Source of the DNA: Nocardia ninae NBRC 108245
Lineage (GTDB): Bacteria; Actinomycetota; Actinomycetes; Mycobacteriales; Mycobacteriaceae
DNA: 64,000 bases
Assembly: GCF_007990755.1 (NCBI RefSeq)
Contig: NZ_BJXA01000011.1
Coordinates: forward strand, 1-64,000
Reading direction: 5' to 3'
Shown: positions 14,019 to 43,890 of the stretch, one piece after another
How positions within the stretch are numbered: the first letter of the stretch is position 1
Layout: each line of letters begins with the position of its first letter
Notes under the pieces: model-generated
Told to the model about the DNA's origin: nothing
The model's database searches: none
Seen by the model: only the letters and a program-made list of their open reading frames with translations
Position numbers and translations under genes: made by a program

Positions 14019-14045
14019 GGGAACTACAGGGCGTAGTTGGCCGAC
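14019..14045 (+). promoter_or_regulatory. ECF-type promoter of the isonitrile lipopeptide operon
   Basis: GGGAACT starts at 14019 and CGAC lies at 14042-14045, with 17 bp between GGGAAC and CGAC. The ATG at 14055 is exactly nine bases after CGAC, as at the zinc-finger gene (25211), which predicts leaderless translation. The same GGAACT-N16-CGAC appears upstream of the zinc-finger gene and of copD-ctaG. The linked sigC gene is the obvious candidate to recognise it. Confidence 0.7.
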
Positions 14046-14054
14046 TACGTGGTT

Positions 14055-14930
14055 ATGCAGCGAACAGCCATGCGGATCAGCCCGCAGGGAGATTTCGGTG
14101 TGGTGGTCGAGGACTTCGACCCCACCTCGCCCGACGATGTCCGTGCGGTCAAGCGCGCCGTGTACCGCGAGCGGATCGCGGTGCTCAAGGGCATCGAGCT
14201 CGACCCGCACCAATTCGTCGCGCTGGCAAGCGGTTTCGGCGATCCGGTCCGGTACTACGAGCCGATCTACCACCACCCGGAAGTGCCCGAGGTGTTCGTG
14301 TCGTCCAATGTCGACACCGGCCGGCAGCGGGTGGGCGTGCCCAAGACCGGAAAGTTCTGGCACTCGGACTACCAGTTCATGGCACGGCCGTTCGACCTGA
14401 CGTTCACCCACACCCAGGTGGTGCCCACGCACAGCCGGGGCACCTACTTCATCGACCTGGCCCGCGCCTACCGCGAACTCAGCCCCGATTTGCGGAGGGC
14501 CGTCGCCGATACGGTCGCGACGCACAGCGTGCGCCGCTACTTCAAGATCCGGCCGAGCGATGTCTACCGGCCCGTCTCCGAGTTGCTCGCCGAGATCGAG
14601 CGGAAGACGCCGCCGGTGACGCTGCCGACGGTGCACGCGCACCCGCACACCGGGGAGCCGGTGGTGTACGTCAGCGAGGGTCTCACCGAATCCGTCACCG
14701 CGGCCGACGGCACCGACCGGCCCGATCTGCTGCACGAATTGCTCTCCGCCACCGGGCAACTCGATGACACCTTCGAGCATCCGGCGATCCGGCTACAGAC
14801 CTTCGAACGTGGTGATCTGCTCATCTGGGACAACCGCAGCCTGGTGCACCGGGCGCTGCACAACACCACCTGTGAGCCCGCGGTGTCGCACCGGGTCACC
14901 GTGTACGACGACGAAGGCATCCCGGCGTGA
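14055..14930 (+). CDS. scoE: Fe(II)/2-oxoglutarate isonitrile-forming oxidase (ScoE/Rv0097 type)
   Basis: TauD-like non-haem iron enzyme of 291 residues. In INLP pathways this family oxidatively decarboxylates an N-carboxymethyl-3-amino fatty acid to the isonitrile. The iron facial triad is visible as H103-x-D105 (FWHSDYQF) and a distal His ~265 (LVHRALH). The family-specific stretch RYYEPIYHH (~66-74) and FKIRPSDVYRP match Rv0097 as I remember it. The start at 14055 is set by the leaderless promoter spacing. The stop overlaps the next start (GTGA). It heads an eight-gene unit running to 24508. Likely regulated by the SigC-like sigma factor. Confidence 0.92.
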   Translation: MQRTAMRISPQGDFGVVVEDFDPTSPDDVRAVKRAVYRERIAVLKGIELDPHQFVALASGFGDPVRYYEPIYHHPEVPEVFVSSNVDTGRQRVGVPKTGKFWHSDYQFMARPFDLTFTHTQVVPTHSRGTYFIDLARAYRELSPDLRRAVADTVATHSVRRYFKIRPSDVYRPVSELLAEIERKTPPVTLPTVHAHPHTGEPVVYVSEGLTESVTAADGTDRPDLLHELLSATGQLDDTFEHPAIRLQTFERGDLLIWDNRSLVHRALHNTTCEPAVSHRVTVYDDEGIPA

Positions 14931-15466
14931 CCGCGGAGGTGTTCGCCAACGATCCGTTGCTGCTGTCGGAGGTGTTGCGCTGCTACAAGCCGCACTGCCG
15001 TTATCTGCGCGAGCTGACAGTCGAGGCACGGGGCGAACAAGCAACGGCCACCGGTACGTTCGAGATCGCCGAGTCCTGCTACATCGATGCGACCGGTCAC
15101 CTCAACTCGGTCGAGGTGAACATCTGTTACAACCAGATGCTCTACCAGACCATCGCGGTGCTGGTGCGCCATCGCGTCGGTCCGCTGTTCGGCGGCTGGA
15201 CCATGGACGACTACTGGCGGCGCCAGCTGCCCGGCATCCTGATCACCAGGCTGGACAGCGAGTTCCGGCGGCCGATCGATCCGCGGCGGTTCTACGGGGA
15301 GTTCGTCCTCGACGGTAGCCAGGAACGCGTCAGCTCGATCGATGGTGCGCCGTTCACCTCGTTGGACACGTCGTTTCGGTGCTGGGACGACGCAGGGGGA
15401 CGCTGCGCGGGCACGGTTCGGTTGGCCATCGTCGACGTGGCGCAACCGATGGGAGCGATGCGATGA
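14927..15466 (+). CDS. scoD: FcoT/ScoD-type thioesterase of isonitrile lipopeptide pathway
   Basis: Hotdog-fold protein of 179 residues equivalent to Rv0098 (FcoT). In INLP biosynthesis the family acts on the ACP-bound alpha,beta-unsaturated acyl chain, enabling glycine addition and release of the N-carboxymethyl amino acid. Family features seen are DPLLLSEVLRCYKPHCRYL at the N-terminus and the central IDATGHLNSVEVNICYNQM. GTG at 14927 overlaps the scoE stop, and its own TGA overlaps the ligase ATG. The exact catalytic residue cannot be assigned by eye. Confidence 0.88.
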   Translation: MTAEVFANDPLLLSEVLRCYKPHCRYLRELTVEARGEQATATGTFEIAESCYIDATGHLNSVEVNICYNQMLYQTIAVLVRHRVGPLFGGWTMDDYWRRQLPGILITRLDSEFRRPIDPRRFYGEFVLDGSQERVSSIDGAPFTSLDTSFRCWDDAGGRCAGTVRLAIVDVAQPMGAMR

Positions 15467-17001
15467 GTGTCCCCACGGTGACTTCGGTCCTCGCGAAGCA
15501 CGCGCGGAATCGTCCGGACACCCTGGCGATCGCCTGCGCTGGACTAGGACTCGACTACGCCCAGCTGCACGCCGACAGCATCCGACTGGCCCGTGCCTTG
15601 CACGCCGCGGACATCGGCAAGGGCAGCCGGGTGGCGTATCTCGGCAAGGAGTCCGTCTACTACTACGCGCTGTTCTTCGCCTGCGCGCGGCTCGGCGCGG
15701 TGCTGGTGCCGATCAACTTCCGGCTGACCGCGCCGGAGGTCGAACACATCATCCGGGACTCGGGCAGCGCGCTGGTGCTGGTCGACGCCGATACCGCCGA
15801 CATCGCGAGATCCGCCGCGCCACAAGTCCGCTCGGTTCGAATGGACGATGACGAGTTCGCCGGATGGCTGGCCGATGTCGCCGACCCGGTTCCCGGCGAA
15901 CGTCCATCGGGTCGCGACGACGCGGTAATCCAGCTGTACACCAGCGGCACCACCGGACTTCCCAAAGGTGTTGTGCTGGCGCAACGTAGCTTCTTCGCCA
16001 TCGCGGATGCACTCACGCAGGCCGGGCTGGACTGGATTGACTTCCGCGACGGCGACCGCAATCTCATCGGCATCCCCGGCTTTCACGTCGGTGGCATCTG
16101 GTGGGCCATGCAGGGTTTCGCGGCGGGCATCACCAATGTGGCGATGCCGCGATTCGACAGCACCACCGCGGTGGCGATCATCGAGGAAGCCCACATCACC
16201 ACCATGTGCGTCGTCCCGTCCATGCTGCGGCTGATCCTCGGCGAACCGCGGGTGACGCCGGAGGCCGTCGGGTCGGTGCGCAAAGTCGTCTACGGTGGAT
16301 CGCCCATTTCGGAGACGCTGCTGCGGGAAGCGTTGGAGCTCTTCGGCGCCGAGTTCGCGCAGATCTACGGGCTGACCGAAACCGGGAACACCGCGATCTG
16401 TCTGCCGCCCGCTGAGCACGCGGCAGGCAATCCGCGGTTGGCCGCCGCAGGACGGCCGTATCCCGGTGTGTCCGTGAAGATCATCGACGCGTCCGGTGCA
16501 CAGCGGCCACCCGGCGAGGTGGGGGAAATCTGCCTGCGCTCGCCCGCCGCCATGCTCGGCTACTGGAACCTGCCGGAGGCCACCGCGGAAACGCTGATCG
16601 ACGGCTGGATCCACACCGGCGACGCCGGATACGTCGACGCCGACGGCTACCTGTACATCCGAGACCGCTTGAAGGACATGATCATTGTCGGCGGCGAGAA
16701 CATCTATCCCGCCGAGATCGAGAACGCCCTGGCCCGGCATCCCGCCGTGGCCGACTCGGCGGTGATCGGTGTGCCGGACGACATTCTCGGTGAATCGGTG
16801 CACGCGTTCGTAACGTGCCGGCCCGGCGCGCAGGTTCGGGTGCGCGAGCTGATGACCTGCTGCCGGGAGCAGCTGGCGTGGTTCAAGATTCCGGCGCGCT
16901 TCGAGTTCGTCGACCGCATTCCGCGCAATCCCAGCGGCAAGATCCTGCGCTGGCAGCTGCGCGACCGGTTCTGGGCCGGCCGGGACAGACAGGTCAACTG
17001 A
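15463..17001 (+). CDS. scoC: FadD10/ScoC-type fatty acyl-ACP ligase
   Basis: ANL-family enzyme of 512 residues, equivalent to Rv0099 (FadD10). It adenylates a fatty acid and loads it on the dedicated ACP encoded next, rather than on CoA. Motifs: [14 protein letters not shown] (~150), [39 protein letters not shown] and the C-terminal [12 protein letters not shown] with its catalytic Lys. The start at 15463 overlaps the scoD stop (ATGA). The acyl chain length cannot be predicted from the sequence. Confidence 0.9.
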
Positions 17002-17006
17002 GCGCG

Positions 17007-17243
17007 ATGGAACCACTCACCTACGACAGCGTGCGCGCGGACATCGCCGACGTGCTGTATCTCGAACCGCACGAATTGAGCGACACCGAAGATCTGTTCG
17101 CCGCCGGACTCGATTCGGTGCGGTTGATCGGCTTGATCGATCGGTGGAAGTCCCGCGGTGCCGCACCGGCTTTCGTGGACCTGGCCGAGAACCCCACCCT
17201 CACCGCCTGGTGGCCGCTGCTCGCTCCACGGTCCGCGCCGTGA
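17007..17243 (+). CDS. scoB: Acyl carrier protein of the isonitrile pathway
   Basis: Stand-alone carrier protein of 78 residues, the same size as Rv0100. The phosphopantetheine Ser lies in [12 protein letters not shown]. It carries the acyl intermediate between the ligase, the thioesterase, the oxidase and the condensation domain of the NRPS. The gene begins five bases after the ligase stop, and its TGA overlaps the GTG start of the NRPS (GTGA). Too small to be recognised outside this context, but the context is unambiguous. Confidence 0.9.
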
Positions 17244-20200
17244 GCGCGCGTGCCCGAGCAATCGACGGAGCCGATGGGGCCGTGGGTTCGGCCGCGCGAC
17301 CGTTGACCGCCGCGCAGCTCGGCGTCTGGCTCGGCCAGCAGCTGGATCCGGCCTCAGCGGTCTTCAATATCGCCGAGTACGTCGAGATTTCAGGTCCGGC
17401 CGAGGTCGAGGCGCTGGTGGCCGCGATTCAGGCTGTGGTCGATGAGGCTGCGGCGTTGCACGTTCGGTTCGTCGAGGACGGTCCGCAACAGATCGCGGAA
17501 TCACTCGACTGGGCTGTTCAGGTGGTGGATGTTTCGGGCGAGCCCGATCCGCTGCGCGCCGCGCTCGAGCTGATGGATCGGGATGTCTCGCAGCCGGTGA
17601 GCCTGACCGATGGTGTGCTCTTCGCGCACATCGTCTTCCGGCTCGATACACAGCGGACGCTCTGGTATCACCGGGTGCACCACATCCTGCTCGATGGCTA
17701 TGGCATGGCGCTGATCGCACGTCGGGTTGCCGAGCTGTACACCGCGTCTGTAGCCGGAACAACCTCGCCGCCTTATGCATTCGGGGATTGGGATGCGGTA
17801 GTGGTGGCCGATCTCGCGTACGCCGAATCCCCCGAGCTCGACCGCGATCGCGCATTTTGGCTCGACTACCTCCGCGATCGCCCGGCCCCGGTCACCTTGT
17901 CCGGTGCCGCGCCTCGGCCGACTTCCGCTGCGGGCCGGGCACTTCGAGAGTTCACCACGCTCGATGCCGAGATCGTCGCGCTGCTGCGGAGCGTCGCACA
18001 GGCCGCACGTGCCAATTGGACCGACGTGTTCACCGCGGCGGTCGCCGCTTACCTGCACCGGATGGCCGGCGCCGCGCAAGTGTGTCTCGCGCTACCGGTG
18101 ATGCTGCGTACCGGGACGCCCGCGTTGCGAGTGCCGTGCATGACGCTCAACGGTGTGGCCCTGTGGGCCGATCTCGCGGACGACCCGACGCTGACCGAGC
18201 TGGCCGGCCAGGTCGCGCGCCAGCTCGTCCGCAGCCGCCGTCATCAGCGCTACCGCAGTGAGCAGGTGCGCCGCGACCTCGGCTTGGTCGGCAGCGACCG
18301 CAGTATGTACGGCCCGTCGGTCAACATCATGCTGTTCGACTACGACCTGCGCTTCGGTGCGTGCACCAGCACGGTCCGCAATGTCACCGCGGGCATGATC
18401 GACGACCTGGTCTTCAACCTCTACGACCGGATGGATGGCGCCGGGCCGACGCTGTATCTCGACGGCCATCCGAGCTCGTACACGGCGGCGGAGCTGGCGA
18501 CGCATCTGCAGCGCTTCACGACGTTTCTCCGACGCCTCCTGACGGAGCCAGATCGGCCCCTCGCTGCGGTCGATCTGTTCCTGCCCGGGGAACGAGAGTG
18601 GTTGCGTGCCAACAGCAGCGGCCCCGAACGTGCTCGGCACGACAGCACGGTGCATCACTTGCTGACCGCCCAGGTGGACCGCACCCCGTCGGCTACGGCG
18701 CTCGTGGCCACCGCTGCCGACGGCGCTCGGCAGGTGCTCACCTATGCCGAACTCGACAGCCGGACAGGGCTATTACGCGCCGCCCTAACCGCAGCGGGCA
18801 CTCGCCCTGGTCACGCCGTGGCGGTGCTGCTTCCCCGCACCAGCGATGCGATCGCGGCGCTGTTCGCCGTACTCGCCAGCGGTGCAACCTATGTCCCGCT
18901 CGATCCCGGACAGCCAGACGCGCGATTGGCGACGCTCCTGCAAGGCTTGGTCGAGGGAACCGAGCTCAGTGCCGTCGTGACCATGACCGCGCTGGCCACG
19001 AAGATCCCCGCCGCACTACGCGACCGAGCCGTCGTGCTGGATGACGGTGGCCTACCGGTAGTTCCGCACGCCCATCCCCCGCTCCGCCTGCATCCCGAGC
19101 ACCCGGCCTGGGTAATCCACACTTCGGGCACCACTGGGACTCCCAAAGCCGTGGTGATTCCACACGGCTCGGTGGCGAACCTGTACCACCACCATCGCGA
19201 GCACCTCATCGAGCCCGCGGTGGCGGCACGAGATGGGCGGCGGATGCGCGCGGCACTCACCGCATCGATGTCTTTCGACACCGCGTGGGAAGGGTTGTTC
19301 TGGCTGCTCGCGGGACACGAGCTGCATCTCATCGATGACGACCTACGCCGCGACCCCGACCGCCTGGTGCGCTACATCAGAGCGCAGCACATCGACTTTC
19401 TCGATGTCACGCCAACTTTCGCGCGCGAACTGCTGGCTGCCGGGCTCTACGCCGGGGCACATCGTCCGGAGGTGCTGGCGCTGGGCGGCGAAGCGGCCGA
19501 TCCGGCCTTGTGGATCGCGCTCCGTGCCGAGCCGGGCATCTCGGTCTACAACCTGTACGGCCCAACGGAATGCACGGTCGATGCCACCTGGACCACCCTC
19601 GCCACGCACACCGCGCCATCGATCGGTTCTCCCGTCACCAACGGCCGCTGCCACGTCCTGGATCGACACCTGCGGCCGGTGCCGCCCGGGGTCGTCGGTG
19701 AGCTGTACGTAGGCGGAATGCCGGTCGGGCAGCGGTATCTCGGTGCGCCTGCCGCTACCGCGACGCGATTCGTAGCCGACCAGTTCGGCGCGAACGGCAG
19801 CCGTCTCTACCGCACCGGTGATCTGGTGCGGTGGCACACCGACGGTCATCTGGAGTATCTGGGCCGCGGCGACGACCAGATGTCGTTGCGCGGCTATCGC
19901 ATCGAGGTCGGCGAGGTGGAGGCCGCGCTCATCGCACACCCGCAGGTCGGCGCGGCCGCGGTGCGTATCCACGACGAAGTCCTTGTCGCTTATGTGGTGC
20001 CCACGCCCGGCGCGGGTGCGCCCGACGCGCAGCACCTCCGCACACACCTGGCCGGTCGGCTACCCGACTACATGGTGCCGTCGGTCTATGTCTCGCTGGA
20101 TCGCTTGCCGCACACCACGAACGGAAAGTTGGATCGAGCCGCGCTGCCCGCACCGCCGAACGCCGAACCGACCGACCGAACCCCGCGCACGCCCACCGAA

Positions 20201-21634
20201 CGCGCGCTGGCCCGATTGTTTGCCGAGGCACTCGAGGTCGCGTCGGTGGGCATCGATGACGACTTCTTCGCGCGCGGCGGGCATTCGTTGCGGGCGGCAA
20301 GGGTGCTCAACGGTGTCCGGGAGGCCTTCGGAGTGCGGTGGGACCTGCGCGCCATGTTCGACACACCCACCGTCGCCGGGCTCGCCGAACGCCTCGAATC
20401 CGGCCGGAACAGCGGGTCATCCTGGACCGCAGCGGATCTCGAAGCGGACACCCGGCTCGACGACGACATCCGGGCGACCGCCGAACCAGGGACGCAGCCG
20501 CACGCGGTGTTGCTGACCGGCGTGACCGGGTTTCTGGGCGCGTTTTTGCTCGCTGCTCTACTCGAACGTACCGACTTTCAGGTGTACTGCCTGGTCCGCG
20601 CAGACGATGATGCCGCGGCACTGCGCCGAATCGAATCTGGTTGCACGCGTTACGGTCTCGACTTCCCGCCGGGGAACCGGGTCACGGCCATCGCGGGAGA
20701 CCTCACCCGCCCCCGGCTAGGCCTTCCGCCGACGCACTACCAACAGCTGGCCGACACCATCGACGTGATCGTCCACAATGGCGCCCGAGTCCACCACTTC
20801 GAGCCGTACTCCCGACTTCGGCCGACGAATGTCGAAGGCACCGAACGTATTCTGCGTTTCGCGACCACCGGCACGACCAAACCGGTCCACTTCGTCTCCT
20901 CCGTGGACACCGCGTTCGCCGTCGACGGCAACCCACCGGTCCTCTCCGAAGACCGACGGGTAGCCGCAACATCGTTGCCGCACAACGGATATGTCGCGAG
21001 CAAGTGGGTGGCGGAGGGCCTGGTGTACGCCGCCGCCGACCGCGGCGTCCCGACCACGGTGTACCGGCCCGGCCGCATCGGCGGCCACTCGGTAACCGGT
21101 GTTTCCGGCCGGGACGACGCGTTCTGGAGCCTGATCCGCGCGATGGTCGTGCTCGGAGCCGTCCCGGACGAGAGCTACGACGCGGGCACCGTCGACCTGG
21201 TACCGGTGGACTGGGTCGCCGCCGCCATCGCCCACTTTGTCGCCCATCGACCTACGGCCCCCACCTACCACCTGACCAGCCGCCACCCGCTGACATTCGC
21301 CACCGTCGTCGACGCACTGTGTGACCGCGGCTACCCGATCGCCACAATCCCCGGCCCGGTCTGGCACGCCCGGTTGACCGCTATGGCGGACCAGGCGTCC
21401 GCGCGAGACGACCATGCGTTGACCATAGCCCGCGCGCACGCCACGCACCTGGCACCCCCTGGCCGCGCCGTCAGCTACGGGCATGACAACTCCGCTGCCG
21501 CACTCGATCCCGCACTCCCGCAACCGGATCCCGTCACGGCACTCCTCGCCGGGATCGACTACCTGATCGACACCCGTTTCCTTCCGCCGCCACCGGCTGT
21601 GGCGGCGCAACGATCGAAGAGGCACCCATGCTGA
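17240..21634 (+). CDS. scoA: Monomodular NRPS, C-A-T-reductase (ScoA/Nrp type)
   Basis: Peptide synthetase of 1464 residues. Condensation domain: active site HHILLDG at 147-153. Adenylation domain: [11 protein letters not shown] ~627, [16 protein letters not shown], and [20 protein letters not shown]. Thiolation: [12 protein letters not shown], Ser ~1015. Terminal thioester reductase: GVTGFLG ~1095 with the Tyr-Lys pair in GYVASK ~1250. It joins isonitrile acyl groups to an amino acid and releases it as an aldehyde or alcohol. Aligning by eye to GrsA gives a tentative pocket of D-T-W-D-A-G-L-V-D-K, acidic and consistent with a diamino acid such as Lys or Orn. The mycobacterial Nrp is dimodular, so this one resembles Streptomyces ScoA. 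The GTG at 17240 overlaps the ACP stop. Confidence 0.93.
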
Positions 21635-22680
21635 TGAAACGCGCGCTGCTGCTGGCACTCGCGGCAAGCACCCTCACCGTCACCGGTTGCACGACCACGG
21701 TCACCGATGCGGCAGACCACCGGCCATCTGCGGCGGCAACTGAGGGTGTCACCAAATTTCCGGTGTCCCTGGACAATTGCGGCAAGACATACACCTTCAC
21801 CGAGGCACCGAAGCGCGTCGTCGTGATGAACGGTGGTTCCGTCGGCGAGGTATCTGCGCTGCTCGCACTGGGCGTCGCCGACCGCGTAGTGGCCAACGCC
21901 CAGTCCTACGGCGCCTCCGACGTACCGGACCGGGCCGCCGCGATCGACGCGTTGCCGACCGGCCAGATCGCCCCGAACAGCCTCCAGGACATCCCGCGCG
22001 AGGCCATGCTGAACCAGCACCCCGACCTGGTGATCTCCACCGGCGGCGGTGGTTTCGCCGCCGACCAGGGTTTCGCGACTCGGGACGAGCTGGCCGCCGC
22101 GGGCGCCAATACCTATGTGCCCCGCGCGAACTGCGGCGTGACGGGTGCCGTCACCGGCACGCCGACGATCGAGGACAGCTACGCGCTGCTCCGCGATCTC
22201 GGCACCATCTTCGACGTGCCCGGCCGGGCCGAACGGCTGATCGCCGACTCGCAGCGTGCGATCGCCGAGACGGCGGGCCGGGTTGCCGGGCAACCGAAGA
22301 AGAACGTGCTGCTCGTCTTCCCCGGCATGGGCATGGGCGATTCCTCGGACTTCTCCGCCATCGCGGCGGGCGGCATCTGGAACGACGTGATCGGCAAGGC
22401 GGGCGGGGTGAACCCGTTCGATCGCGACGACGGCACCACGTTCGTGACGATCAGCAAGGAGCAACTCGCGGTGACGCCGATCGACGGGCTCGTCGTGGTC
22501 AACTACCGCAGCCCCGACATCGACGCGGTCGCCAAACGCATACTCGCGCAGTTTCCGCAGTGGGCGGCCGCACGGACCGAAAACTATGCGGTGCTGTCCG
22601 ATTCGATCTACCTCGGTCCGAGCAACGACGTCGCGGTGCGGCGCATAGCGACCCTGGTGCACCCCGAGCAATTCCGATGA
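21628..22680 (+). CDS. Metallophore-binding lipoprotein of ABC importer (FecB/BtuF-like)
   Basis: Substrate-binding protein of 350 residues, exported and lipidated. The signal peptide [21 protein letters not shown] ends in a lipobox Cys at 21. A type III periplasmic-binding-protein body follows ([29 protein letters not shown] and [25 protein letters not shown]). The family captures siderophores, cobalamin and haem. The start overlaps the NRPS stop by seven bases, placing it in the INLP operon, so the ligand is most likely the metal-loaded isonitrile lipopeptide. This is inference from context. Confidence 0.88.
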
Positions 22681-23723
22681 CCCGCACCACTACCCGTGCA
22701 CCGTTGGCGACGACACCGCTGCCGATCGTGCTCACGATCTCGGCCGCGGTGCTGCTCGCCGTGATGCTGCTGTCGATCGCCGCGGGCTCGGTCACCGTCT
22801 CGATCGCAGACACCGGCCGCGTGATCCTGGCTCATTTATCCGGGAAGACACCGGATGTCGGCTTCACCGTCGACCAGATCGTCTGGCACTACCGACTCCC
22901 CCGGGTGATTCTGGCCGCGCTGTGCGGCTGTGGTCTCGCGGTGGCGGGCGTGATTCTGCAAGCGCTGGTGAACAATCCGCTGGCCGATCCGTATGTGCTC
23001 GGGTTGTCCTCCGGTGCCTCACTCGGCGCGGTGACCGTCATCGTCACGACGGGTGGCGTACTCGGCGGGGTCGGAGTGAGCGCCGCGGCCTTCTGCGGCG
23101 CGGTGGCGACCATCGCGGTGGTGTTCCTGCTCGGGCAGCAACGCGGCACCCTGGTGCCCACCCGGCTGGTGCTGGCCGGTGTCGCGGTCGGCTACCTCCT
23201 GCTCGCCGCCACCAACTACCTGCAATTGCGCGCCACACCGAACGAGCTACGGGCGGTGATGTTCTGGACGATGGGCAGTGTCGCCGGAGCGAGCTGGGAT
23301 CGGCTCGGGCCGGTCACCGTGGTGGTGCTGGTGACCGTGGCCATCGTGCTCGCCTTCGGCCGCAGGCTCAATGTGCTCGGCACCGGCGACGAGCAGGCCA
23401 CCGCGCTCGGTGTCGATGTGCGCACGCTCCGGATCGTCCTGCTGGTGCTGGCCTCGCTGCTGACGGGCGTGCTGATCGCGGTGGCCGGCGGTATCGGCTT
23501 CGTCGGCTTGATGATTCCGCATCTGGTCCGGCTCGGCTTCGGCCTGGACCATCGGCGGGTGCTGCCGCTGTCCGCCGTGATCGGCGCCGCGTATCTGGTT
23601 GCGGTAGACCTGCTTTCGCGCACCGTCGACGCGCCCAACGAGCTGCCGCTCGGTATTTTCACCGCGGCGTTCGGCGCACCGTTCTTCCTCTGGCTGCTGC
23701 GCCGCGGCGGCGGGCCGGCATGA
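22677..23723 (+). CDS. FecCD-type ABC transporter permease
   Basis: Membrane permease of 348 residues with about ten helices, the inner-membrane channel of the metallophore importer. Family marks are YRLPRVILAALCGCGLAVAGVILQALVNNPLADPYVLGLSSGASLGA near the N-terminus and GGIGFVGLMIPHLVRL near the C-terminus (the coupling region for the ATPase). ATG at 22677 overlaps the lipoprotein TGA (ATGA). Only one permease gene is present, so it should act as a homodimer. Confidence 0.92.
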   Translation: MTRTTTRAPLATTPLPIVLTISAAVLLAVMLLSIAAGSVTVSIADTGRVILAHLSGKTPDVGFTVDQIVWHYRLPRVILAALCGCGLAVAGVILQALVNNPLADPYVLGLSSGASLGAVTVIVTTGGVLGGVGVSAAAFCGAVATIAVVFLLGQQRGTLVPTRLVLAGVAVGYLLLAATNYLQLRATPNELRAVMFWTMGSVAGASWDRLGPVTVVVLVTVAIVLAFGRRLNVLGTGDEQATALGVDVRTLRIVLLVLASLLTGVLIAVAGGIGFVGLMIPHLVRLGFGLDHRRVLPLSAVIGAAYLVAVDLLSRTVDAPNELPLGIFTAAFGAPFFLWLLRRGGGPA

Positions 23724-24508
23724 GCGCCTCGGCCGAATTGTCGGTTGCCGGAGTGAGTGTCACGTTCGGCGACACCGCGGTCCTGGACAAGGTGACCCTG
23801 CACGCCCCGCCCGGCGCGGTCGTCGGCCTGGTCGGCCCCAATGGCAGCGGCAAGACCACGCTGCTGCGCACCGTCTATCGATCACTCCAACCCGCCACCG
23901 GCATCATCGCGATCGATGGTGCCGACATCGCCGGCATGTCGATACGCACGGCGGCCCAGACAACCGCGGCGGTCCTCCAGAACGGTTCCGGCGCACCGGA
24001 ATCGACCGTCGCCGAAGTGGTCGGCCTCGGCCGCAATCCACATCACGCCCTGTTCAGCCGGGACACCGCGGCCGACCAGCAGGCCGTCGCGGACGCCATG
24101 GCGCGCACCGGCGTCACCGCCTACGCCGACCGCACCGTCGGTTCACTGTCCGGCGGCGAACGTCAGCGCGTCCTGCTCGCCCGAGCCCTCGCGCAACAAC
24201 CACGCCTGCTGGTGCTCGACGAACTGACCAACCATCTCGACGTCCGGGCCCGCTTCGAACTGCTCGACCTGATCCGCGCCACCGGCATCACCACCCTCGC
24301 GGTGCTGCACGAACTCGATCTCGCCGTCCGCTGTTGTGACCGGCTGGTCGTGCTCGACCGCGGCGGCGTCGTCGCGGCGGGCGAGGTGCTCGAGGTGATG
24401 ACGCCGGTACTACTCCGCGAGGTGTTCGGTGTACACGCCACGGCGACGAGGCACGCCGACGGAATCATCCGATTGCATTACGCCGCAAACCCTTTGGCTG
24501 TGCTGTGA
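23720..24508 (+). CDS. ABC transporter ATPase for metallophore import
   Basis: Nucleotide-binding subunit of 262 residues (FecE/BtuD-like). Walker A GPNGSGKTT, signature LSGGERQRVLLARAL, Walker B LLVLDELTNHLD and H-loop LHELDLA are all intact. It energises the permease encoded just upstream, whose stop overlaps this start (ATGA). It is the last gene of the eight-gene operon and ends five bases before the convergent sigC stop. Confidence 0.93.
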   Translation: MSASAELSVAGVSVTFGDTAVLDKVTLHAPPGAVVGLVGPNGSGKTTLLRTVYRSLQPATGIIAIDGADIAGMSIRTAAQTTAAVLQNGSGAPESTVAEVVGLGRNPHHALFSRDTAADQQAVADAMARTGVTAYADRTVGSLSGGERQRVLLARALAQQPRLLVLDELTNHLDVRARFELLDLIRATGITTLAVLHELDLAVRCCDRLVVLDRGGVVAAGEVLEVMTPVLLREVFGVHATATRHADGIIRLHYAANPLAVL

Positions 24509-24513
24509 CGGCC

Positions 24514-25080
24514 TCAGCCGTGCGCGCGTCGCCTGCCGCCGAACCGCGTCGCGGCGACCAGATCTTCGCGGCCCCGCGCCACCCGCGAACGCACCGTGCC
24601 CACCGGGCAGCCGCACACCGCCGCCGCCTCGGCGTAGGACAGGCCGAGCACCTGGGTGAGCACCAACGCCTCGCGCCGCTCCGGCGCCAGGTCGTCGAGC
24701 AGCAGATTGAGCTCGACGATCTCGGTCAGCCCGTCCCGGCGCGGCACCTGCCGGTCCGCCGCCGCGGCCCAGTCGACGCCGTGCGCGATCTTCGGCCTGG
24801 CCACCGCCATCCGCACCTGATCGACCACGACGCGGCGCGCGATGGACAGCAGCCAGGTGCGCGCGCTGGCGCGGCCCTCGAAGCGCTTGATGCTGCCGAG
24901 GGCACGCAGGTAGGTCTCCTGGGTCAGGTCGTCGGCCCGGCCGACCTCGGTCAGATGGGCGAGCAGTCGCCACACGTCTTTCTGGGTGGCCCGGATGAAA
25001 GCTTCCAGTGCCCGCCGGTCGCCACGCGCCGCCGCCAGTGCCAGGCGGGTCGTCTCGTCATCCTCGGCGGGCGTCGGCAT
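24514..25080 (-). CDS. sigC: ECF RNA polymerase sigma factor, SigC-like
   Basis: Group 4 sigma factor of 188 residues. Region 2 (GDRRALEAFIRATQKDVWRLL then ADDLTQETYLRALGSIKRF) and region 4 (LGLSYAEAAAVCGCPVGTVRSRVARGRE) match M. tuberculosis SigC closely as I remember it, including the unusual CGCPVGT helix-turn-helix. In M. tuberculosis, SigC has been linked to expression of the nrp operon, ctpB and Rv0102 and to copper acquisition. Here the orthologous genes surround it. It is convergent with the importer ATPase and divergent from the zinc-finger membrane protein at 25211. It likely recognises GGAACT-N16-CGAC. Confidence 0.9.
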   Translation of the reverse strand: MPTPAEDDETTRLALAAARGDRRALEAFIRATQKDVWRLLAHLTEVGRADDLTQETYLRALGSIKRFEGRASARTWLLSIARRVVVDQVRMAVARPKIAHGVDWAAAADRQVPRRDGLTEIVELNLLLDDLAPERREALVLTQVLGLSYAEAAAVCGCPVGTVRSRVARGREDLVAATRFGGRRRAHG

Positions 25081-25174
25081 GGTGTCGACAATAACCGGCG
25101 GGTATCGCGGCAAGGGACCGGCCCGGCGGCCGTAATCCGCGTCACGGTGAGCGTTGCCACCGAAGACAACCTGC

Positions 25175-25201
25175 GGGAACTTCGGTGTCCGGATAGACGA
25201 C
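25175..25201 (+). promoter_or_regulatory. ECF-type promoter of the zinc-finger/ctp operon
   Basis: GGGAACT begins at 25175 and CGAC lies at 25198-25201 with the same 17-bp separation from GGGAAC as upstream of scoE. The GTG start at 25211 is again nine bases after CGAC. There is no ribosome binding site, so a leaderless message is expected. This also decides the start codon of the downstream gene. Confidence 0.7.
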
Positions 25202-25210
25202 AATCTGGAC

Positions 25211-25954
25211 GTGGAGTGCAAAGTGTGCCGGACGGCGCTGTCGGCCCGGATCGACGGCGAGCGCGAAACCGTTCCCGCGGCCAGGGTGGACGAGCACCTG
25301 GAGCAGTGCGCCGAGTGCTGCTCCTGGTACGTCGCCGCGGTGGAGACCTCGAAGCGGTTGCGCGCCGGCTCGTCGTACGCGCCGGACCTGACCGACGCGA
25401 TCTTCGCCGCCGCCCAGTTGGAGCGGCCGCAGCCGTCGCGGCTGTCCAGGCTGCGCGCCGCCGTACCGACCTCGCGCGCCGTTTCCGCCCGCATGCTGCT
25501 CGGCCTGCTCGGTGTCCTGCAGTGCGCGTTGGCGCTGGGCCAGCTGGCCGGGGTCGACTTCGGCATGAGCCACCACCACGCCGCCGAGATGACCCGCCAC
25601 CTGCTCAACGAGAGCACCGCGTGGAGCTTGGCCATCGGCGTCGGATTCCTCTACTGCGCGCTGCGGCCGCATGCCGCCTCGGGCGTGCTGCCGGTGTTGG
25701 GCGTGCTGGTCGCCGCGTTGAGCGCGTTCGTCGTGTCCGACCTGTACTCCGGTGTGGTGCCGGTTTCCCGGGTGCTTTCGCACGGCCTGCTCGTGATCGC
25801 GCTGGTGCTGGTCGTGGTCGTGCACCGGACCCGCCGCCCGGACACCTCGCCACCGACCAGCGACCGGGTCCCCACCGATCTGGTCCTGCCTGCGGGTGCC
25901 CAGCTCGGCAGGCGCACTCGTCACCTTCGTTCGACCCAGGATCCCGCCGCGTGA
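25211..25954 (+). CDS. Zinc-finger, His-rich membrane protein; candidate anti-SigC
   Basis: Protein of 247 residues. An N-terminal zf-HC2 anti-sigma motif is clear: C3-x2-C6 (ECKVCRTALSARIDGE) and H29-x3-C33-x2-C36 (EHLEQCAECC). About four membrane helices follow (~94-205). Between the first two is a Met/His-rich segment, FGMSHHHAAEMTRHLL (~118-132), that could bind copper. It resembles Rv0093c, which lies beside ctpA in M. tuberculosis (from memory). Divergent from sigC and 13 bp before the Cu ATPase. I infer that it holds SigC at the membrane and responds to copper. An alternative start at 25154 lies upstream of the promoter and is unlikely. Confidence 0.78.
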   Translation: MECKVCRTALSARIDGERETVPAARVDEHLEQCAECCSWYVAAVETSKRLRAGSSYAPDLTDAIFAAAQLERPQPSRLSRLRAAVPTSRAVSARMLLGLLGVLQCALALGQLAGVDFGMSHHHAAEMTRHLLNESTAWSLAIGVGFLYCALRPHAASGVLPVLGVLVAALSAFVVSDLYSGVVPVSRVLSHGLLVIALVLVVVVHRTRRPDTSPPTSDRVPTDLVLPAGAQLGRRTRHLRSTQDPAA

Positions 25955-25967
25955 TGAACGGACTGTC

Positions 25968-28241
25968 ATGACCATCGAGCTCGACCCGATCACTCGACCC
26001 GACTCGACCGACTCGCCGAACCGCATCTCCCTCGCCGTCACCGGTATGAGCTGTGCGGCCTGCTCCACTCGGGTGGAACGCAAGCTCAACAAGATCGATG
26101 GAGTCACCGCGTCGGTGAACTACGCGACCGGCATCGCGACGATCGACGCGGTCGGCGACCTGACCGCCGAGCAGCTGTGCGCCGAGGTCGAGGCCACCGG
26201 CTTCGGGGCGTCGCCGGTCACCGACCGCGCCGAGACGATCCGTTCGACGCCGGAGGACGCGCAGGTCAGCGATCTGCTGCGGCGGCTGGTCGTCGCGCTG
26301 ATGGCGTTCTTCCCGCTGGCCGACCTCTCGGTGATGTTCGCCACCATCCCGTCCACCCGGATCACCGGCTGGCAGCTGATCCTCACCGTGCTCGCGCTGC
26401 CCGTCGTGGTCTGGTCGGCGGCGCCGTTCCACCGCAAGGCTTTCGCCAATGCCAAGGCCGGTGCGGCCAGCATGGACACCCTGGTCTCGGTCGGCGTGCT
26501 CACCGCGACGCTGTGGTCGTTGGACACCATGTTCCTGCACCCGAACCGTTCCGAGCCTGCCCCCGACGGGGTCTGGGCGGCGATCTGGGCCAGTGACGCG
26601 ATCTACCTCGAGGTGGCCGCGGGTGTCACCGCATTCGTGTTGGCGGGGCGGTATTTCGAGGCGAAGGCCAAGCGCTCGGCGGGCAGCGCGCTGCGTGCGC
26701 TGGCCGCGCTCGGTGCCCGCGAGGTCACCGTGCTGACCCGCGACGACCGCGAATTACGCGTGCCCATCGGCGAACTCGTGGAAGGGCAGCGCTTCGTGGT
26801 GCGCCCTGGTGAGACCATCGCCACGGACGGCCTTGTCGTAGCGGGTGAATCGAGCGTCGACGCCAGCGCGATGACCGGTGAATCCCTCCCGGTCGACGTG
26901 ACGGCGGGCATGGCGGTGATCGGCGGCACCACCGCGCTCACCGGTCGCCTGATCGTGGAAGCCGCTGCGGTAGGGGCGGATACGAAGCTGTCCGGGATGA
27001 TCCGGCTGGTCGAACAGGCGCAGACCGGCAAGGCGCGCATGCAGCGGATCGCCGATCGGGTGTCGGCGGTGTTCGTTCCGTTCGTCTTCCTCCTGACCGC
27101 CGTGACCTTCGTGAGCTGGCTCGTCACCGGTGCCGGTGCGGATCGGGCCGCGGCCGCCGCGCTGGCGGTGCTGGTGGTGGCGTGCCCGTGCGCGCTGGGC
27201 CTGGCCATCCCGACCGCGCTGATGGTGGCCTCAGGACGCGGTGCGCAACTGGGCATTTTCATCAAGGGACATCAGGCGCTGGAAGCCACCCGCGACGTCG
27301 ACACCGTCGTGCTGGACAAGACCGGCACCGTCACCAACGGCGCGATGAGCGTGGTCGCGGTGACCGAGCGCGAGCCGTTCAGCACGGCGGAGGTGCTGCG
27401 CCTGGCCGGTGCGGTGGAGGCGGCGTCCGAACACGCGGTGGCCGCGGCGATCACCCGCCACGCCCGCGACGTGGTCGAGGAATTGCCCGCCGTCGAATCC
27501 TTCGAGGCACTACCGGGATTGGGTGCCAGCGGCACGGTAGATGGCCGCCGCGTGCTGGTGGGCCGAGCGCGGCTGTTCGACGATCAAGGCATCGGCATCC
27601 CACAGGAACTGAATCGCGCTGTCCGGCAACAGGAACGCTGCGGGCGCACCGTGGTGCTGGTCGCCGTGGACGGTGCGGTCGTCGCGGTGATCGCGGTGGC
27701 CGATACCGTCAAGGACACCGCGGCCGCCGCGATCGCCCGGCTGCACCGGCTCGGGCTGCGGGTCATGATGTTCACCGGTGACAACGCCTACGCGGCGCAA
27801 TCGGTGGCCGACGAGATCGGCATCGATGAGGTTGTCGCCGAACTGCTTCCGGAGGGCAAGGTCGACCTGATCGCCCGCATGCAGGAGCAGGGGCGCCGCG
27901 TGGTGATGGTCGGCGACGGCATCAACGACGGTGCGGCGCTGGCCACCGCCGACCTCGGCATGGCGATCGGCGCGGGCACCGACGTCGCGATCGCCGCCGC
28001 CGACGTCATCCTGGTGCGCGAGGACCTCGGCGCCGTGGCCGACGCCATCGAGCTGGCGCATGCCACGTTGCGCACCATCAAGGGAAACCTGGTGTGGGCC
28101 TTCGGCTACAACGTGATCGCCATCCCGGTGGCCGCGCTCGGGTTCCTGAATCCGCTGATCGCCGGGGCGGCCATGGCGTTCTCGTCGTTCTTCGTGGTCT
28201 CGAACAGCTTGCGGCTGCGGCGAGTTCGCTTCGATCGCTAG
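25968..28241 (+). CDS. ctpA: Cu(I)-translocating P1B-type ATPase (CtpA/CopA-like)
   Basis: Membrane pump of 757 residues that moves Cu(I) across the membrane with ATP. An N-terminal heavy-metal domain carries GMSCAAC (C29, C32). The CPC motif is in VVACPCALGLAIP, the phosphorylated Asp in DKTGTVTNG, and the hinge in GDGINDGAALATADLG. The last two helices have the Cu(I)-type residues (GYNVIAIP and MAFSSFFVVSNSLRL). It follows the zinc-finger gene by 13 bp and should share its promoter. In an acquisition setting it probably supplies copper to extracytoplasmic cuproenzymes rather than providing detoxification, as proposed for some mycobacterial Ctp pumps. Confidence 0.92.
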   Translation: MTIELDPITRPDSTDSPNRISLAVTGMSCAACSTRVERKLNKIDGVTASVNYATGIATIDAVGDLTAEQLCAEVEATGFGASPVTDRAETIRSTPEDAQVSDLLRRLVVALMAFFPLADLSVMFATIPSTRITGWQLILTVLALPVVVWSAAPFHRKAFANAKAGAASMDTLVSVGVLTATLWSLDTMFLHPNRSEPAPDGVWAAIWASDAIYLEVAAGVTAFVLAGRYFEAKAKRSAGSALRALAALGAREVTVLTRDDRELRVPIGELVEGQRFVVRPGETIATDGLVVAGESSVDASAMTGESLPVDVTAGMAVIGGTTALTGRLIVEAAAVGADTKLSGMIRLVEQAQTGKARMQRIADRVSAVFVPFVFLLTAVTFVSWLVTGAGADRAAAAALAVLVVACPCALGLAIPTALMVASGRGAQLGIFIKGHQALEATRDVDTVVLDKTGTVTNGAMSVVAVTEREPFSTAEVLRLAGAVEAASEHAVAAAITRHARDVVEELPAVESFEALPGLGASGTVDGRRVLVGRARLFDDQGIGIPQELNRAVRQQERCGRTVVLVAVDGAVVAVIAVADTVKDTAAAAIARLHRLGLRVMMFTGDNAYAAQSVADEIGIDEVVAELLPEGKVDLIARMQEQGRRVVMVGDGINDGAALATADLGMAIGAGTDVAIAAADVILVREDLGAVADAIELAHATLRTIKGNLVWAFGYNVIAIPVAALGFLNPLIAGAAMAFSSFFVVSNSLRLRRVRFDR

Positions 28242-28260
28242 CCGCGCCCCCGATAAGGCC

Positions 28261-30234
28261 TCAACGACGGGACTGGGCCAGTTGGTCCAGCATGGCGTTG
28301 TACGCGGCGAGATCGGAGTCGCCGTAGTCGTCGTCCTTGCGGTCGGTGCGCACCGCGGTGCGGCGGTCCTGGGCCACCCACTGGGTGAGCAGCGCACCGA
28401 CCACGAGCAGGATCGGGATTTCGCCGGAGACCCAGGCGATGCCGCCGCCGACGCGCTGATCGGCGAGCAGGTCGATCCGCCACGGCAGTTGCAGGTTCGT
28501 GTAGAAACGCGACCCGATGACGGTGTTCATCGACATCACCGCGACACCGAAGAAAGCGTGAAAAGGCATGACCGCGAACAGCATCCCGAGCCTGCCCAGA
28601 TGTGGCAGCCGGCGCGGGCCCGGGTCGATGCCGATGATGCCCCAGTAGTACAGGTAGCCGACGATCAGGAAGTGCACGTTCATCAGCACGTGCCCCCAGT
28701 GGTAGCGGATCAAGCTCTCGAACAGTGGCGTGAAATACAAGCCGTAGAGCGAGATCACGAACAACGACAGCGCGGTCGCGGGGTGGGCGATCACCGCGGT
28801 CGGTCGCGAATGCAGCAGCGCGAGTACCCATTCGCGCACACCGTGCACCGCGCCGCGCTTGGCCGCCGGGACCGCGCGCAGCAGCAGGGTCACCGGCGCG
28901 CCGAGCACCAGCAGCACCGGCACGAACATGTTCAAGGCCATGTGCGTGATCATGTGCATGCTGAACATCGCGAAACCGTAGGTGCCGATGCCCGAGGAGG
29001 TCGCGATCAGCAGCGCCACACAACCGCTGATCCAGGAAATGGTGCGCCACTTCGACCACTCGTCGCCGCGCCGCCACAACCGCAGCACGCCGAGCGCGTA
29101 CAGCACGATCGCGGCCACCGCGGCGGTGCCGAGCACGAGGTCGAAGCGCCACAACGTCATCAGCCGCAGCAGGTTCGGCCGGTCGAACAGGTCGAAGCCG
29201 AGGAAGACCTGCTGCGCGGTGAACGACCGGTCGGCGAAGGCCGGGGCGGGCTGTACCGCCATGGCCACCGTCGCGCCGAGCGCTATCGCGGAAAGCGCTC
29301 CGCCGGAAGCGATCAGGAAGGCGGTGCGGGGGCCGGGCTGCCGGTGGCGCAGCACGACGCGCATGGTCAGCGCGAGGTCGACGCCTACCGCGACCACCAC
29401 CAGTGCCAGCCGCCCGTACCCGGTACCGAGCACATCCCGCCAGGGCAGCAGGATCAGCCAGAGCACGAGGCCACTGAGGGTCGCCGCCGCCAGGCACAGC
29501 AGAGTGATCGTCGCACCGCGATGTACCGCGGTGCGCGCGTGTGACCCGTTGCGCCGCAGGTGTTCCGCGACGCACCACAGCAGTCCGGGCAGCACCGATA
29601 CCGCGAGCTGGAAGACGATCATCGCGCCGGTGCCGTAGTCGTGATTCGGACCCTCCCCCGCGTTGCCCACCATCGCGGGGGGCAGCACGCCGATGGCGGC
29701 CACCAGCATGAGCACCGCTGCCCCGTTCCAGGACAACATGATTCGAGCACCAAGGGTCACCACTGCGGCAAGCAGGGCGACCACGATCCACGCCTTCGGC
29801 TTTTCGCCGGCGTCGATCAGCGGGCCGAGCGCGCCCAGCCGGAAGAGACTGGAGACGGTCAATCCGCCCACATTCGCGGCGGTCACCGGGATCAGCGCCA
29901 ACGCCGACACCAGCCACACCGCACCGGCCCGCTCGGCCAGGCGCAGGCCGGAGTAGCCGTCGACATCGAGGCGGCCGCGGCCGGTGACCGCGGTACAGCA
30001 CACCGCGTAGACCAGGGCGCCGAGCGCGGTCGCACCCGCCAGCGCGGCGGCAACACGCAGCACCACGTACGCGAGCACGTCGACGAAGCCGGGATAGGCG
30101 GTTCCGGCGGCCCGGTACGGCGTCGCGCCCGCTTCCACCACCGAGCCGATGACGAGGGCGAGCAGAACGGCCGTCGCGACCAGCCAGACGAGGTGGACCG
30201 TCGAGCGTTTCACCTGCACGTTTCCGTCCACCAT
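28261..30234 (-). CDS. CopD-CtaG fusion, copper import/cytochrome oxidase assembly protein
   Basis: Polytopic membrane protein of 657 residues, like Rv0102. The N-terminal half is CopD-like (about eight helices). The C-terminal half is a caa3_CtaG domain with copper-binding-type Met/His patches: FAMFSMHMITHMALNMF, HWGHVLMNVHF and FAVMPFHAFFGVAVMSMNT. CtaG-type proteins deliver copper to cytochrome c oxidase. It is convergent with the Cu ATPase (19 bp apart). A GGAACT-N16-CGAC element lies 44-69 bp upstream of its start, so it is likely co-regulated with the isonitrile operon. The ATG at 30234 has only CGAGG adjacent, so the start is uncertain. Confidence 0.88.
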   Translation of the reverse strand: MVDGNVQVKRSTVHLVWLVATAVLLALVIGSVVEAGATPYRAAGTAYPGFVDVLAYVVLRVAAALAGATALGALVYAVCCTAVTGRGRLDVDGYSGLRLAERAGAVWLVSALALIPVTAANVGGLTVSSLFRLGALGPLIDAGEKPKAWIVVALLAAVVTLGARIMLSWNGAAVLMLVAAIGVLPPAMVGNAGEGPNHDYGTGAMIVFQLAVSVLPGLLWCVAEHLRRNGSHARTAVHRGATITLLCLAAATLSGLVLWLILLPWRDVLGTGYGRLALVVVAVGVDLALTMRVVLRHRQPGPRTAFLIASGGALSAIALGATVAMAVQPAPAFADRSFTAQQVFLGFDLFDRPNLLRLMTLWRFDLVLGTAAVAAIVLYALGVLRLWRRGDEWSKWRTISWISGCVALLIATSSGIGTYGFAMFSMHMITHMALNMFVPVLLVLGAPVTLLLRAVPAAKRGAVHGVREWVLALLHSRPTAVIAHPATALSLFVISLYGLYFTPLFESLIRYHWGHVLMNVHFLIVGYLYYWGIIGIDPGPRRLPHLGRLGMLFAVMPFHAFFGVAVMSMNTVIGSRFYTNLQLPWRIDLLADQRVGGGIAWVSGEIPILLVVGALLTQWVAQDRRTAVRTDRKDDDYGDSDLAAYNAMLDQLAQSRR

Positions 30235-30277
30235 CCTCGAGTACGAAAGTTGCCCCTGAACCAGGCCTCGCTGACCG

Positions 30278-30303
30278 GTCGGCCGCGGCGCCGGGAAAGT
30301 TCC
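30278..30303 (-). promoter_or_regulatory. ECF-type promoter of copD-ctaG
   Basis: On the minus strand GGAACT begins at 30303 and CGAC lies at 30281-30278, with 17 bp between GGAAC and CGAC, the same spacing as at 14019 and 25175. Unlike those two, the start codon is 43 bases further on, giving a short leader. Confidence 0.65.
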
Positions 30304-42631: not shown

Positions 42632-43890
42632 GCATCCAATCGCACGTCACGGCACGACCCTCGACCTCATGGCCCGATGTCGAACACGTGCCCACCGGCA
42701 CCCGCGCCACCATCGCCGCCGCGCTGGCGGATCGGCTGTTCCGGCGCGCCGTGCGCACGTTGCCGATCCGGGTCGAATACCCGGACGGGACGGTGCTCGG
42801 CCGCGGCGGGGCGGACGCGCCGCGGCTGATCCTGCACCGGCCGGCGGACTTCACCGCGCGGCTCGGGGTAGGCGGCCTGATCGGCTTCGGCGAGTCGTAC
42901 ATGGCCGGCGACTGGTCGTCGCCGGATCCGGCGGCGACGCTCACGGTGTTCGCGGCCCGCATCGACCGGCTCGTCCCCGCCCCGCTGCGGGCGCTACGCC
43001 GCCTATACGTGTCGAAACACCCCGCTGCCGAGCACAACAGCGAGTCGAACAGCCGCAGCAATATCGCCAGGCACTACGACCTGTCGAACAACCTGTTCGA
43101 GCTGTTCCTCGACGAGACGCTGACCTACTCCAGCGCGCTGTTCCCCGCGACCGCGCCGCCGCCGCGGTGGGCCGACCTCGCCGCCGCGCAGCAGGCCAAG
43201 ATCGACCGAATACTCGACCGCGCGGGCGTCGGTCCGGGCACCCGGATGCTCGAAATCGGTACCGGCTGGGGCGAATTGGCGCTGCGCGCGGCCGCTCGCG
43301 GCGCGTCGGTACGGTCGGTGACGCTGTCCACGGAGCAGCGCGCACTGGCGCTCGACCGGATCGCCGCCGCGGGCCTGTCCGAGCGCGTCACCATCGATCT
43401 GCTCGACTACCGCAGGGTGACCGGCGAGTTCGACGCGGTGGTCTCGGTGGAGATGATCGAGGCCGTCGGTTACGAATACCTGGACACCTTCTTCGAGACC
43501 ATCGACCGGGTGCTCGCGCCGGGTGGCCGCGCGGTGATCCAGGCGATCACCATGCCGCACCACCGCATGCGCGCCACCCGCGACACCTACACCTGGGTGC
43601 ATAAGTACATCTTCCCCGGCGGCTTCCTGCCGTCCACTCGGTTGCTCGCCGACGTGGCCGCCCGGCGCACCGAACTCGTTGTCCGCGAACAACTGTCGAT
43701 GGGCGAGCACTACGCGCACACCCTGCGCCTGTGGCAGCAGCGGTTCAACGCGCGCGCCGATCGCGTCGCGGAACTGGGTTTCGATCCGATCTTCCGCCGG
43801 ATGTGGCGGTTGTACCTGGCGCACGCCGAGGCCGGGTTCCGCTGCGGCTATCTCGATGTGCACCAGATTCTGCTCACCCGCGACGCGTGA
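42628..43890 (+). CDS. cfa: Cyclopropane-fatty-acyl-phospholipid synthase family protein
   Basis: SAM-dependent methyltransferase of 420 residues that modifies unsaturated acyl chains of membrane lipids. The N-terminal Cfa extension is present (LGVGGLIGFGESYMAGDW), then SRSNIARHYDLSNNLFELFLDETLTYSSALF, SAM motif LEIGTGWGELAL, and the active-site stretch VSVEMIEAVGYEYLDTFF. The N-terminal extension and E-A-V-G form fit bacterial Cfa better than mycolate cyclopropane synthases. GTG at 42628 has GAGGAG nine bases upstream. Cfa genes are common in LitR clusters. Confidence 0.88.
   Translation: MSIQSHVTARPSTSWPDVEHVPTGTRATIAAALADRLFRRAVRTLPIRVEYPDGTVLGRGGADAPRLILHRPADFTARLGVGGLIGFGESYMAGDWSSPDPAATLTVFAARIDRLVPAPLRALRRLYVSKHPAAEHNSESNSRSNIARHYDLSNNLFELFLDETLTYSSALFPATAPPPRWADLAAAQQAKIDRILDRAGVGPGTRMLEIGTGWGELALRAAARGASVRSVTLSTEQRALALDRIAAAGLSERVTIDLLDYRRVTGEFDAVVSVEMIEAVGYEYLDTFFETIDRVLAPGGRAVIQAITMPHHRMRATRDTYTWVHKYIFPGGFLPSTRLLADVAARRTELVVREQLSMGEHYAHTLRLWQQRFNARADRVAELGFDPIFRRMWRLYLAHAEAGFRCGYLDVHQILLTRDA

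Follow-up and report, generated by a model that had tools for sequence, protein, structure and literature searches.

Genes and promoter elements of the window

The stretch analysed here, referred to as the window, comprises 64,000 nt (positions 1-64,000 of contig NZ_BJXA01000011.1) of the 9.7 Mb genome of Nocardia ninae NBRC 108245 and carries three copies of a promoter-like element, GGAACT-N16-CGAC (17 bp between GGAAC and CGAC), among which the extracytoplasmic function (ECF) sigma factor SigC is encoded. All three were found where a preliminary description had placed them, at 14020-14045 (+) before scoE, at 25176-25201 (+) before a unit of a zf-HC2 gene and ctpA, and at 30303-30278 (-) before copD-ctaG. 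At the first two the start codon lies exactly 9 nt past CGAC (ATG 14055 and GTG 25211) and no Shine-Dalgarno-like stretch was seen by eye, so that both are predicted to be leaderless, as had been claimed. The claim did not extend to copD-ctaG, whose ATG at 30234 is 43 nt past CGAC, with a predicted transcription start at about 30268 and a leader of about 34 nt. Three matches to GGAACT-N16-CGAC compare with 0.13 expected in the window, and none of 100 shuffles reached three; for GGAAC-N17-CGAC, five matches compare with 1.39 expected, and 3 of 100 shuffles reached five. The two additional matches, at 43083-43108 (-) and 44641-44666 (-), are without the T.

Positions 14055-24508 of the + strand hold, in order, scoE, encoding an isonitrile-forming oxygenase (14055-14930; NCBIfam NF049937, 410.6 bits, cut-off 400; Pfam TauD), a fcoT/scoD-like gene for a thioesterase or glycyltransferase (14927-15466; Pfam FcoT, 4.7e-59; NF049938, 216.9 bits, under the cut-off of 250), a fadD10-like acyl ligase gene (15463-17001; Pfam AMP-binding; NF004837 above its cut-off, the FadD10 model under its own), an acyl/peptidyl carrier protein gene (17007-17243; Pfam PP-binding, 7.7e-9), nrp, encoding a peptide synthetase with a reductase end (17240-21634; Pfam Condensation, AMP-binding, PP-binding and NAD_binding_4), and genes for a siderophore-type binding protein, a candidate for chalkophore uptake (21628-22680; Pfam Peripla_BP_2), a FecCD permease (22677-23723; Pfam FecCD, 1.3e-93) and an ATP-binding cassette (ABC) transporter ATPase (23720-24508; Pfam ABC_tran). 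These are followed by sigC (24514-25080, -), the zf-HC2 and ctpA genes (25211-28241, +) and copD-ctaG (28261-30234, -). The zf-HC2 gene (25211-25954), which encodes a membrane protein and probable anti-SigC factor, overlaps the ctpA open frame (25896-28241) at 25896-25954, the true start of ctpA probably lying inside that frame; CtpA was assigned as a Cu-translocating P1B-type ATPase using Pfam and TIGR01511 (504.5 bits, cut-off 397). The copD-ctaG product is an oxidase assembly protein of the CtaG type that has a long N-terminal region (Pfam Caa3_CtaG, 4e-90, residues 377-621), and no Pfam match was obtained for its CopD half. The isonitrile operon and the copper ATPase thus both stand behind an element.

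The preliminary description had noted a SigC-like gene among the elements, and by sequence the product of 24514-25080 (-) is SigC, scoring 228.7 bits against the NCBIfam equivalog NF007231 (cut-off 219) and containing sigma regions 2 and 4 (Pfam Sigma70_r2 and r4_2). Its best matches in the PDB were 2o7g (2.5e-35) and 2o8x (5.4e-20), both titled 'Probable RNA polymerase sigma-C factor', which we take to be Mycobacterium tuberculosis proteins. Because the zf-HC2 protein is 96% identical to its counterpart in Nocardia suismassiliense S-137 and the zf promoter is identical letter for letter, the window genome is, judged by these sequences, a close relative of that strain.

Conservation of the element in relatives

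A search with the sigma protein covered 298 genomes of the order and gave a match at 1e-15 in 253 of them. In 49 of these 253 the match did not reach 1e-20, and such matches were counted as other sigma factors. Two sets of loci, which share some genomes, were examined: a sigC-centred set of 39 + 20 stretches around sigC from genomes of the order, where the closest match to every window gene was located and the DNA before it checked for the element, and a zf-centred set consisting of the best 80 of 561 zf-HC2 relatives and their loci. In the sigC-centred set, zf matches below 60 bits (L093, L099) were left out, and L140, which is cut inside the gene and not assessable, was counted as a miss. 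The aligned zf start lies, at L125 and L129, downstream of the start codon that follows the element.

The zf-HC2 promoter was the best conserved. An element followed by a start codon 8-10 nt on was present in 27 of 43 sigC-centred cases, the 16 misses being L092, L094, L096, L097, the cut L140 and 11 fused genes, and it was kept in 71 of the 80 zf-centred loci, with a distance to the start codon of 9 nt in 61, 10 nt in nine and 8 nt in one; the nine misses were L265, L280, L285, L288, L290, the fused L289, L298 and L301, and L305, in which the spacer is 16. In 38 spacer-nonredundant sites, in which conservation of the core is fixed by the search itself, flanking positions that the search left free are conserved as well: the two bases directly behind GGAAC are T or A (83% and 78%), and CGAC is followed by T/A, then A (84%), then T (78%), with no conservation in the middle of the spacer. 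The zf-HC2, ctpA- and copD-type matches and a mycobacteria-like zf promoter were also encountered in two records titled Bifidobacterium breve metagenome-assembled genomes (L262, L291), contigs that are probably mis-binned or mislabelled.

For the other genes the element was less regular. A scoE gene was found in 16 of the 298 genomes (18 loci); counting the window, eight of these loci have the element within 300 bp. Within 200 bp, the distance applied to these genes in the sigC-centred set, it preceded scoE in 3 of 4 cases, ctpA in 11 of 18, copD-ctaG in 5 of 10 and the binding protein gene in 2 of 6. An element of its own was found for ctpA in none of the 13 Nocardia loci of the zf-centred set, where ctpA lies behind zf-HC2, and in 13 of the 34 others, and copD-ctaG retains its element in 12 of the 13 loci from close Nocardia, two of which are N. 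brasiliensis. At L092 and L093, from the genus of the window, the uptake binding-protein gene has its own upstream GGAAC-N17-CGAC. No element was found within 200 bp of fadD10 (0/6), fcoT (0/4), the ABC ATPase gene (0/5), nrp (0/1) or the short-chain dehydrogenase/reductase control gene (0/5) in the sigC-centred set. As the element precedes sigC in only 3 of 59 sigC-centred stretches and in none of 49 zf-centred ones, autoregulation of sigC was rejected as a general feature. The promoter set is real, conserved and of SigC type; the case is firm at zf-HC2, good at scoE and ctpA and, mainly within Nocardia, good also at copD-ctaG.

Order-wide occurrence and further candidate targets

The leaderless form GGAAC-N17-CGAC-HA-N7-RTG was present in 224 of the 298 genomes (85 of 298 for a control with a spacer of 14), comprising 175 of the 204 genomes with sigC (E-value up to 1e-20) and 49 of the 94 without. 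In the N. ninae genome a loose leaderless form, with spacers of 16-18 and the start codon 6-11 nt further on, matched 112 times, compared with 62 in the reversed control. Inspection of 58 loci in this genome (30 of the 39 bare-motif matches and the 28 carrying the CGACHA flank), using a crude heuristic of third-position GC content and open frames in place of gene calls, yielded nothing convincing beyond the three window sites.

Fifty distinct leaderless sites were inspected, 20 at hand-picked loci and 30 returned by search, and the counts are hence not rates. Judged by N-terminal sequence, the genes behind them were 18 zf-HC2 relatives (one, at L199, with a frame of only 34 aa), seven MauE-like, three YcnI-like and two CopC-CopD genes. 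At L183 and L184 the leaderless codon begins the CopC-CopD frame, whose real start may be further in; frames of no more than 15-42 aa follow the codon at the similar sites L181, L182 and L185. In the two genomes of L181 and L182 it opens an identical 15-aa frame, which may encode a leader peptide or be due to a chance start. Pfam confirmed five proteins, namely CopC and CopD with an adjoining DUF1775 protein (L183), MauE/DoxX with an adjoining Thioredoxin_4/DSBA protein (L188), and an SCO1-SenC protein (L198), the gene of which lies downstream of a zf gene. A candidate set of SigC targets in several genera, delineated from these sequences, would encompass the chalkophore genes, CtpA, CopD-CtaG, CopC-CopD, YcnI-like proteins and MauE with thioredoxin.

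The zf-HC2 protein as a candidate anti-SigC factor

The window protein has an N-terminal zinc finger scoring 30.3 bits against Pfam zf-HC2 (cut-off 22.2), and its gene itself carries a SigC-type promoter. Across the 298 genomes, zf-HC2 and SigC occurred together in 200, SigC alone in four, zf-HC2 alone in one, which is a 63% complete genome, and neither in 93. When the zf-HC2 profile was taken beyond the order, to 148 genomes sampled at class level, it turned up in 18, five of which belong to the order itself. The two genes are divergent neighbours in 22 of the 36 sigC-centred loci outside the mycobacterial genus g2 and in 31 of the 80 zf-centred loci; in the latter set sigC adjoins or is fused to the zf-HC2 gene in 38 of 80, 31 of these being divergent, four having sigC just upstream on the same strand and three being fused. 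L099 holds a prematurely ending zf-HC2-like frame of 84 aa that begins 741 bases before sigC, in the same orientation; this genome has a second sigC, and the gene looks split or decayed.

In-frame fusions of zf-HC2 and SigC were identified in 14 mycobacterial loci (L104, L105, L131-L139 from genus g2, L289, L298 and L301), the carriers in the zf-centred set being two Mycobacterium interjectum records and Mycobacterium sp. Marseille-P9652. Eleven of the fusions were judged from the frame distance and open-frame length, and 12 of the 14 were rechecked, L137 and L138 resting on frame arithmetic; in the 12 measured, the fused frames are 444-460 aa long with an internal Met near the usual SigC start. 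A SigC-type promoter as the driver of the fused genes was rejected, since none of the 14 has the element.

Invariant residues in both alignments (23 and 37 sequences) were C3, H29, C33 and C36 of the finger and H130, E134, D177, R187 and H191 of the membrane part. Hydrophobic stretches in the window protein span residues 89-119, 135-153, 153-186 and 181-209. From the hydropathy of this one sequence and the alignment, a topology of four helices with the finger inside may be proposed, which would place H130 and E134 at the outer start of helix 2, D177 at the outer end of helix 3, and R187 and H191 at the outer start of helix 4. In the loop before H130, 34 of the 37 sequences have a His and 35 have at least two His/Met residues. 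The invariant H130, E134, D177 and H191 on the presumed outer face suggest metal sensing, with copper as a possible ligand, and the product of this 'zinc-finger' gene is, on the strength of the finger, the co-occurrence, the fusions and the invariant residues, probably the anti-SigC factor.

Relation to known systems

A role for SigC in copper starvation, involving ctpB and the nrp operon, has been described in M. tuberculosis (PMC7924339, PMC9147137, PMC9600254); chromatin immunoprecipitation (ChIP) in Bacille Calmette-Guérin located SigC at ctpB and ppe1-nrp, with near-identical -35/-10 elements, and SigC transcribes ctpB in vitro (PMC7924339). The window resembles this ECF36 regulon in its SigC equivalog, in an isonitrile/nrp operon and a CtpA/CtpB-type ATPase as targets, predicted ones in N. 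ninae, and in a sigC that is not autoregulated, near-identical -35/-10 elements having been described for the mycobacterial targets (PMC7924339). It differs in that sigC of N. ninae lies inside the cluster, divergent from zf-HC2/ctpA, whereas that of M. tuberculosis is monocistronic (PMC7924339), and in that scoE opens the operon and the set takes in an ABC uptake system and copD-ctaG. Transcripts without a leader are frequent in M. tuberculosis (PMC3898074).

The zf-HC2 protein shares its N-terminal H-x3-C-x2-C zinc finger with zinc-associated anti-sigma (ZAS) factors such as RsrA and RskA. Those typically have no helix or one, whereas the N. ninae protein has several hydrophobic segments with the invariant His/Glu/Asp/His. 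In the M. avium complex a protein with an anti-sigma signature is joined to SigC as a sigC-Rv0093c fusion, the function of which is reported as unknown (PMC7563442), whereas N. ninae has two divergent genes; the shared architecture suggests that the window protein may be an Rv0093c orthologue. CopC-CopD and DUF1775 behind the element in relatives recall the YcnJ/YcnI copper uptake of Bacillus subtilis ycnKJI, which is controlled there by the copper-dependent repressor YcnK, in contrast to the sigma-factor promoter of N. ninae (PMC8424229, PMC12362106, PMC13344008). Copper-deficiency sensing in bacteria with SigC has been called an open question (PMC7924339). In our literature search, the scope of which did not extend to the 2007 ChIP study or the 2021 ECF classification, neither a proven anti-SigC factor nor a SigC promoter described across the order was found.

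Alternative explanations

A number of observations weigh against a SigC promoter set coupled to a zf-HC2 anti-sigma factor. The copD-ctaG unit carries a leader. Away from close Nocardia its element is rare, occurring in 3 of 45 loci, all Amycolatopsis, so that the unit was rejected as a generally conserved target; 10 of the 18 scoE loci are without an element within 300 bp, several of these genes following another gene and possibly not being first in their operon; and some mycobacterial zf genes, as well as all fused ones examined, lack it. At 20 of the 50 inspected sites the codon opens unrelated or very short frames (nine short and 11 others, many in plainly coding DNA). The genome-wide scan of the bare motif, set beforehand as a test of the preliminary description, came out at chance level (39 matches compared with 38 in the reversed control, no enrichment), and with the CGACHA flank the counts were 28 and 41. 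Because these counts are at or below the reversed control, the frequency of the bare motif proves nothing alone, and they are what chance matches in a GC-rich genome would give. It is on register and conservation that the case, as far as sequence can carry it, is built, and with a fixed register in 71 of 80 zf-centred loci and no window shuffle in 100 giving three matches, chance is a scarcely credible explanation.

The elements could instead be generic GGAAC-type promoters read by one or more other ECF factors, for example SigM, SigC being merely a neighbour. The -35 elements of ECF factors are generally known to resemble one another, and the 49 of 94 genomes that have at least one leaderless match and no sigC, above the rate for the wrong spacer, make single leaderless matches weak evidence. 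In M. tuberculosis SigM raises part of the nrp operon, its overexpression raising rv0098-rv0100, and at low copper ctpB is not higher in the wild type than in the sigC mutant (PMC7924339). Set against this, SigC drives ctpB in vitro (PMC7924339), matches track the presence of sigC (175 of 204 genomes versus 49 of 94), the best-conserved copy precedes the gene that co-occurs with sigC and, among the 16 scoE genomes, the sole one without sigC (G223, L317) has no scoE element, although this is a single case; a generic ECF promoter is accordingly considered quite unlikely. The zf-HC2 protein might also be a SigC target with another job, such as copper binding or delivery, SigC being controlled by its own fold or amount. 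This would be in keeping with the overlap of its gene with ctpA, with the conformational control proposed for M. tuberculosis SigC, a member of group ECF36 (PMC8999054), and with a score of 23.7 bits against the NCBIfam anti-sigma model NF052375, which is so far under the cut-off of 100 that the protein was not assigned to that family. Four genomes (G021, G134, G218, G238) have SigC and no detected zf-HC2, which may be lost, diverged or missed, and in 42 of the 80 zf-centred loci sigC is farther off (11) or outside the available stretch (31). The finger above the Pfam cut-off, the co-occurrence with sigC, the in-frame fusion to SigC and the anti-sigma signature of the M. avium complex fusion (PMC7563442) speak for an anti-sigma role, and the other-job explanation is regarded as unlikely.

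Proposed mechanism and implications

In the proposed model, which as a whole we consider probable, the SigC encoded among the three elements uses them as its promoters. Under copper scarcity, RNA polymerase carrying SigC would transcribe the operon for isonitrile (chalkophore) synthesis and uptake from scoE, together with zf-HC2 and ctpA and with copD-ctaG, transcription of the scoE and zf-HC2/ctpA units beginning on or beside the start codon; copper would be scavenged, moved across the membrane and inserted into cytochrome oxidase. The zf-HC2 anti-sigma factor would hold SigC at the membrane by its cytoplasmic finger (C3, H29, C33, C36) and would report copper by H130, E134, D177 and H191 on the outer face and the His/Met-rich loop, so that loss of copper frees SigC; because the zf-HC2 gene would itself be under SigC, negative feedback may limit this release. 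The promoters and their conservation, the identity of SigC, the pairing, co-occurrence and fusion of the two genes and the invariant residues were read from sequence, and from them we infer the dependence on SigC in N. ninae, the anti-sigma action, the topology, copper as the ligand and the direction of the switch. The earlier suggestion that one sigma factor drives isonitrile synthesis, copper pumping and oxidase assembly is supported by this comparison, with strong conservation of the copD-ctaG element confined to close Nocardia.

A SigC promoter set for copper starvation is known in kind; what is newer is the putative anti-SigC sensor in the membrane and the broader range of candidate targets. 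The odds appear even that SigC and zf-HC2 form a copper-starvation sensor throughout the order, in which the membrane anti-sigma factor binds copper via H130, E134, D177 and H191 and releases SigC when copper is lost. If this were true, the zf-HC2 protein would fill the place of the M. tuberculosis anti-SigC factor, which has been reported as unidentified, and some mycobacteria would have sensor and sigma factor as one membrane-tethered chain. With a candidate protein, possible ligands, a promoter and a target set, copper-deficiency sensing through SigC becomes testable.

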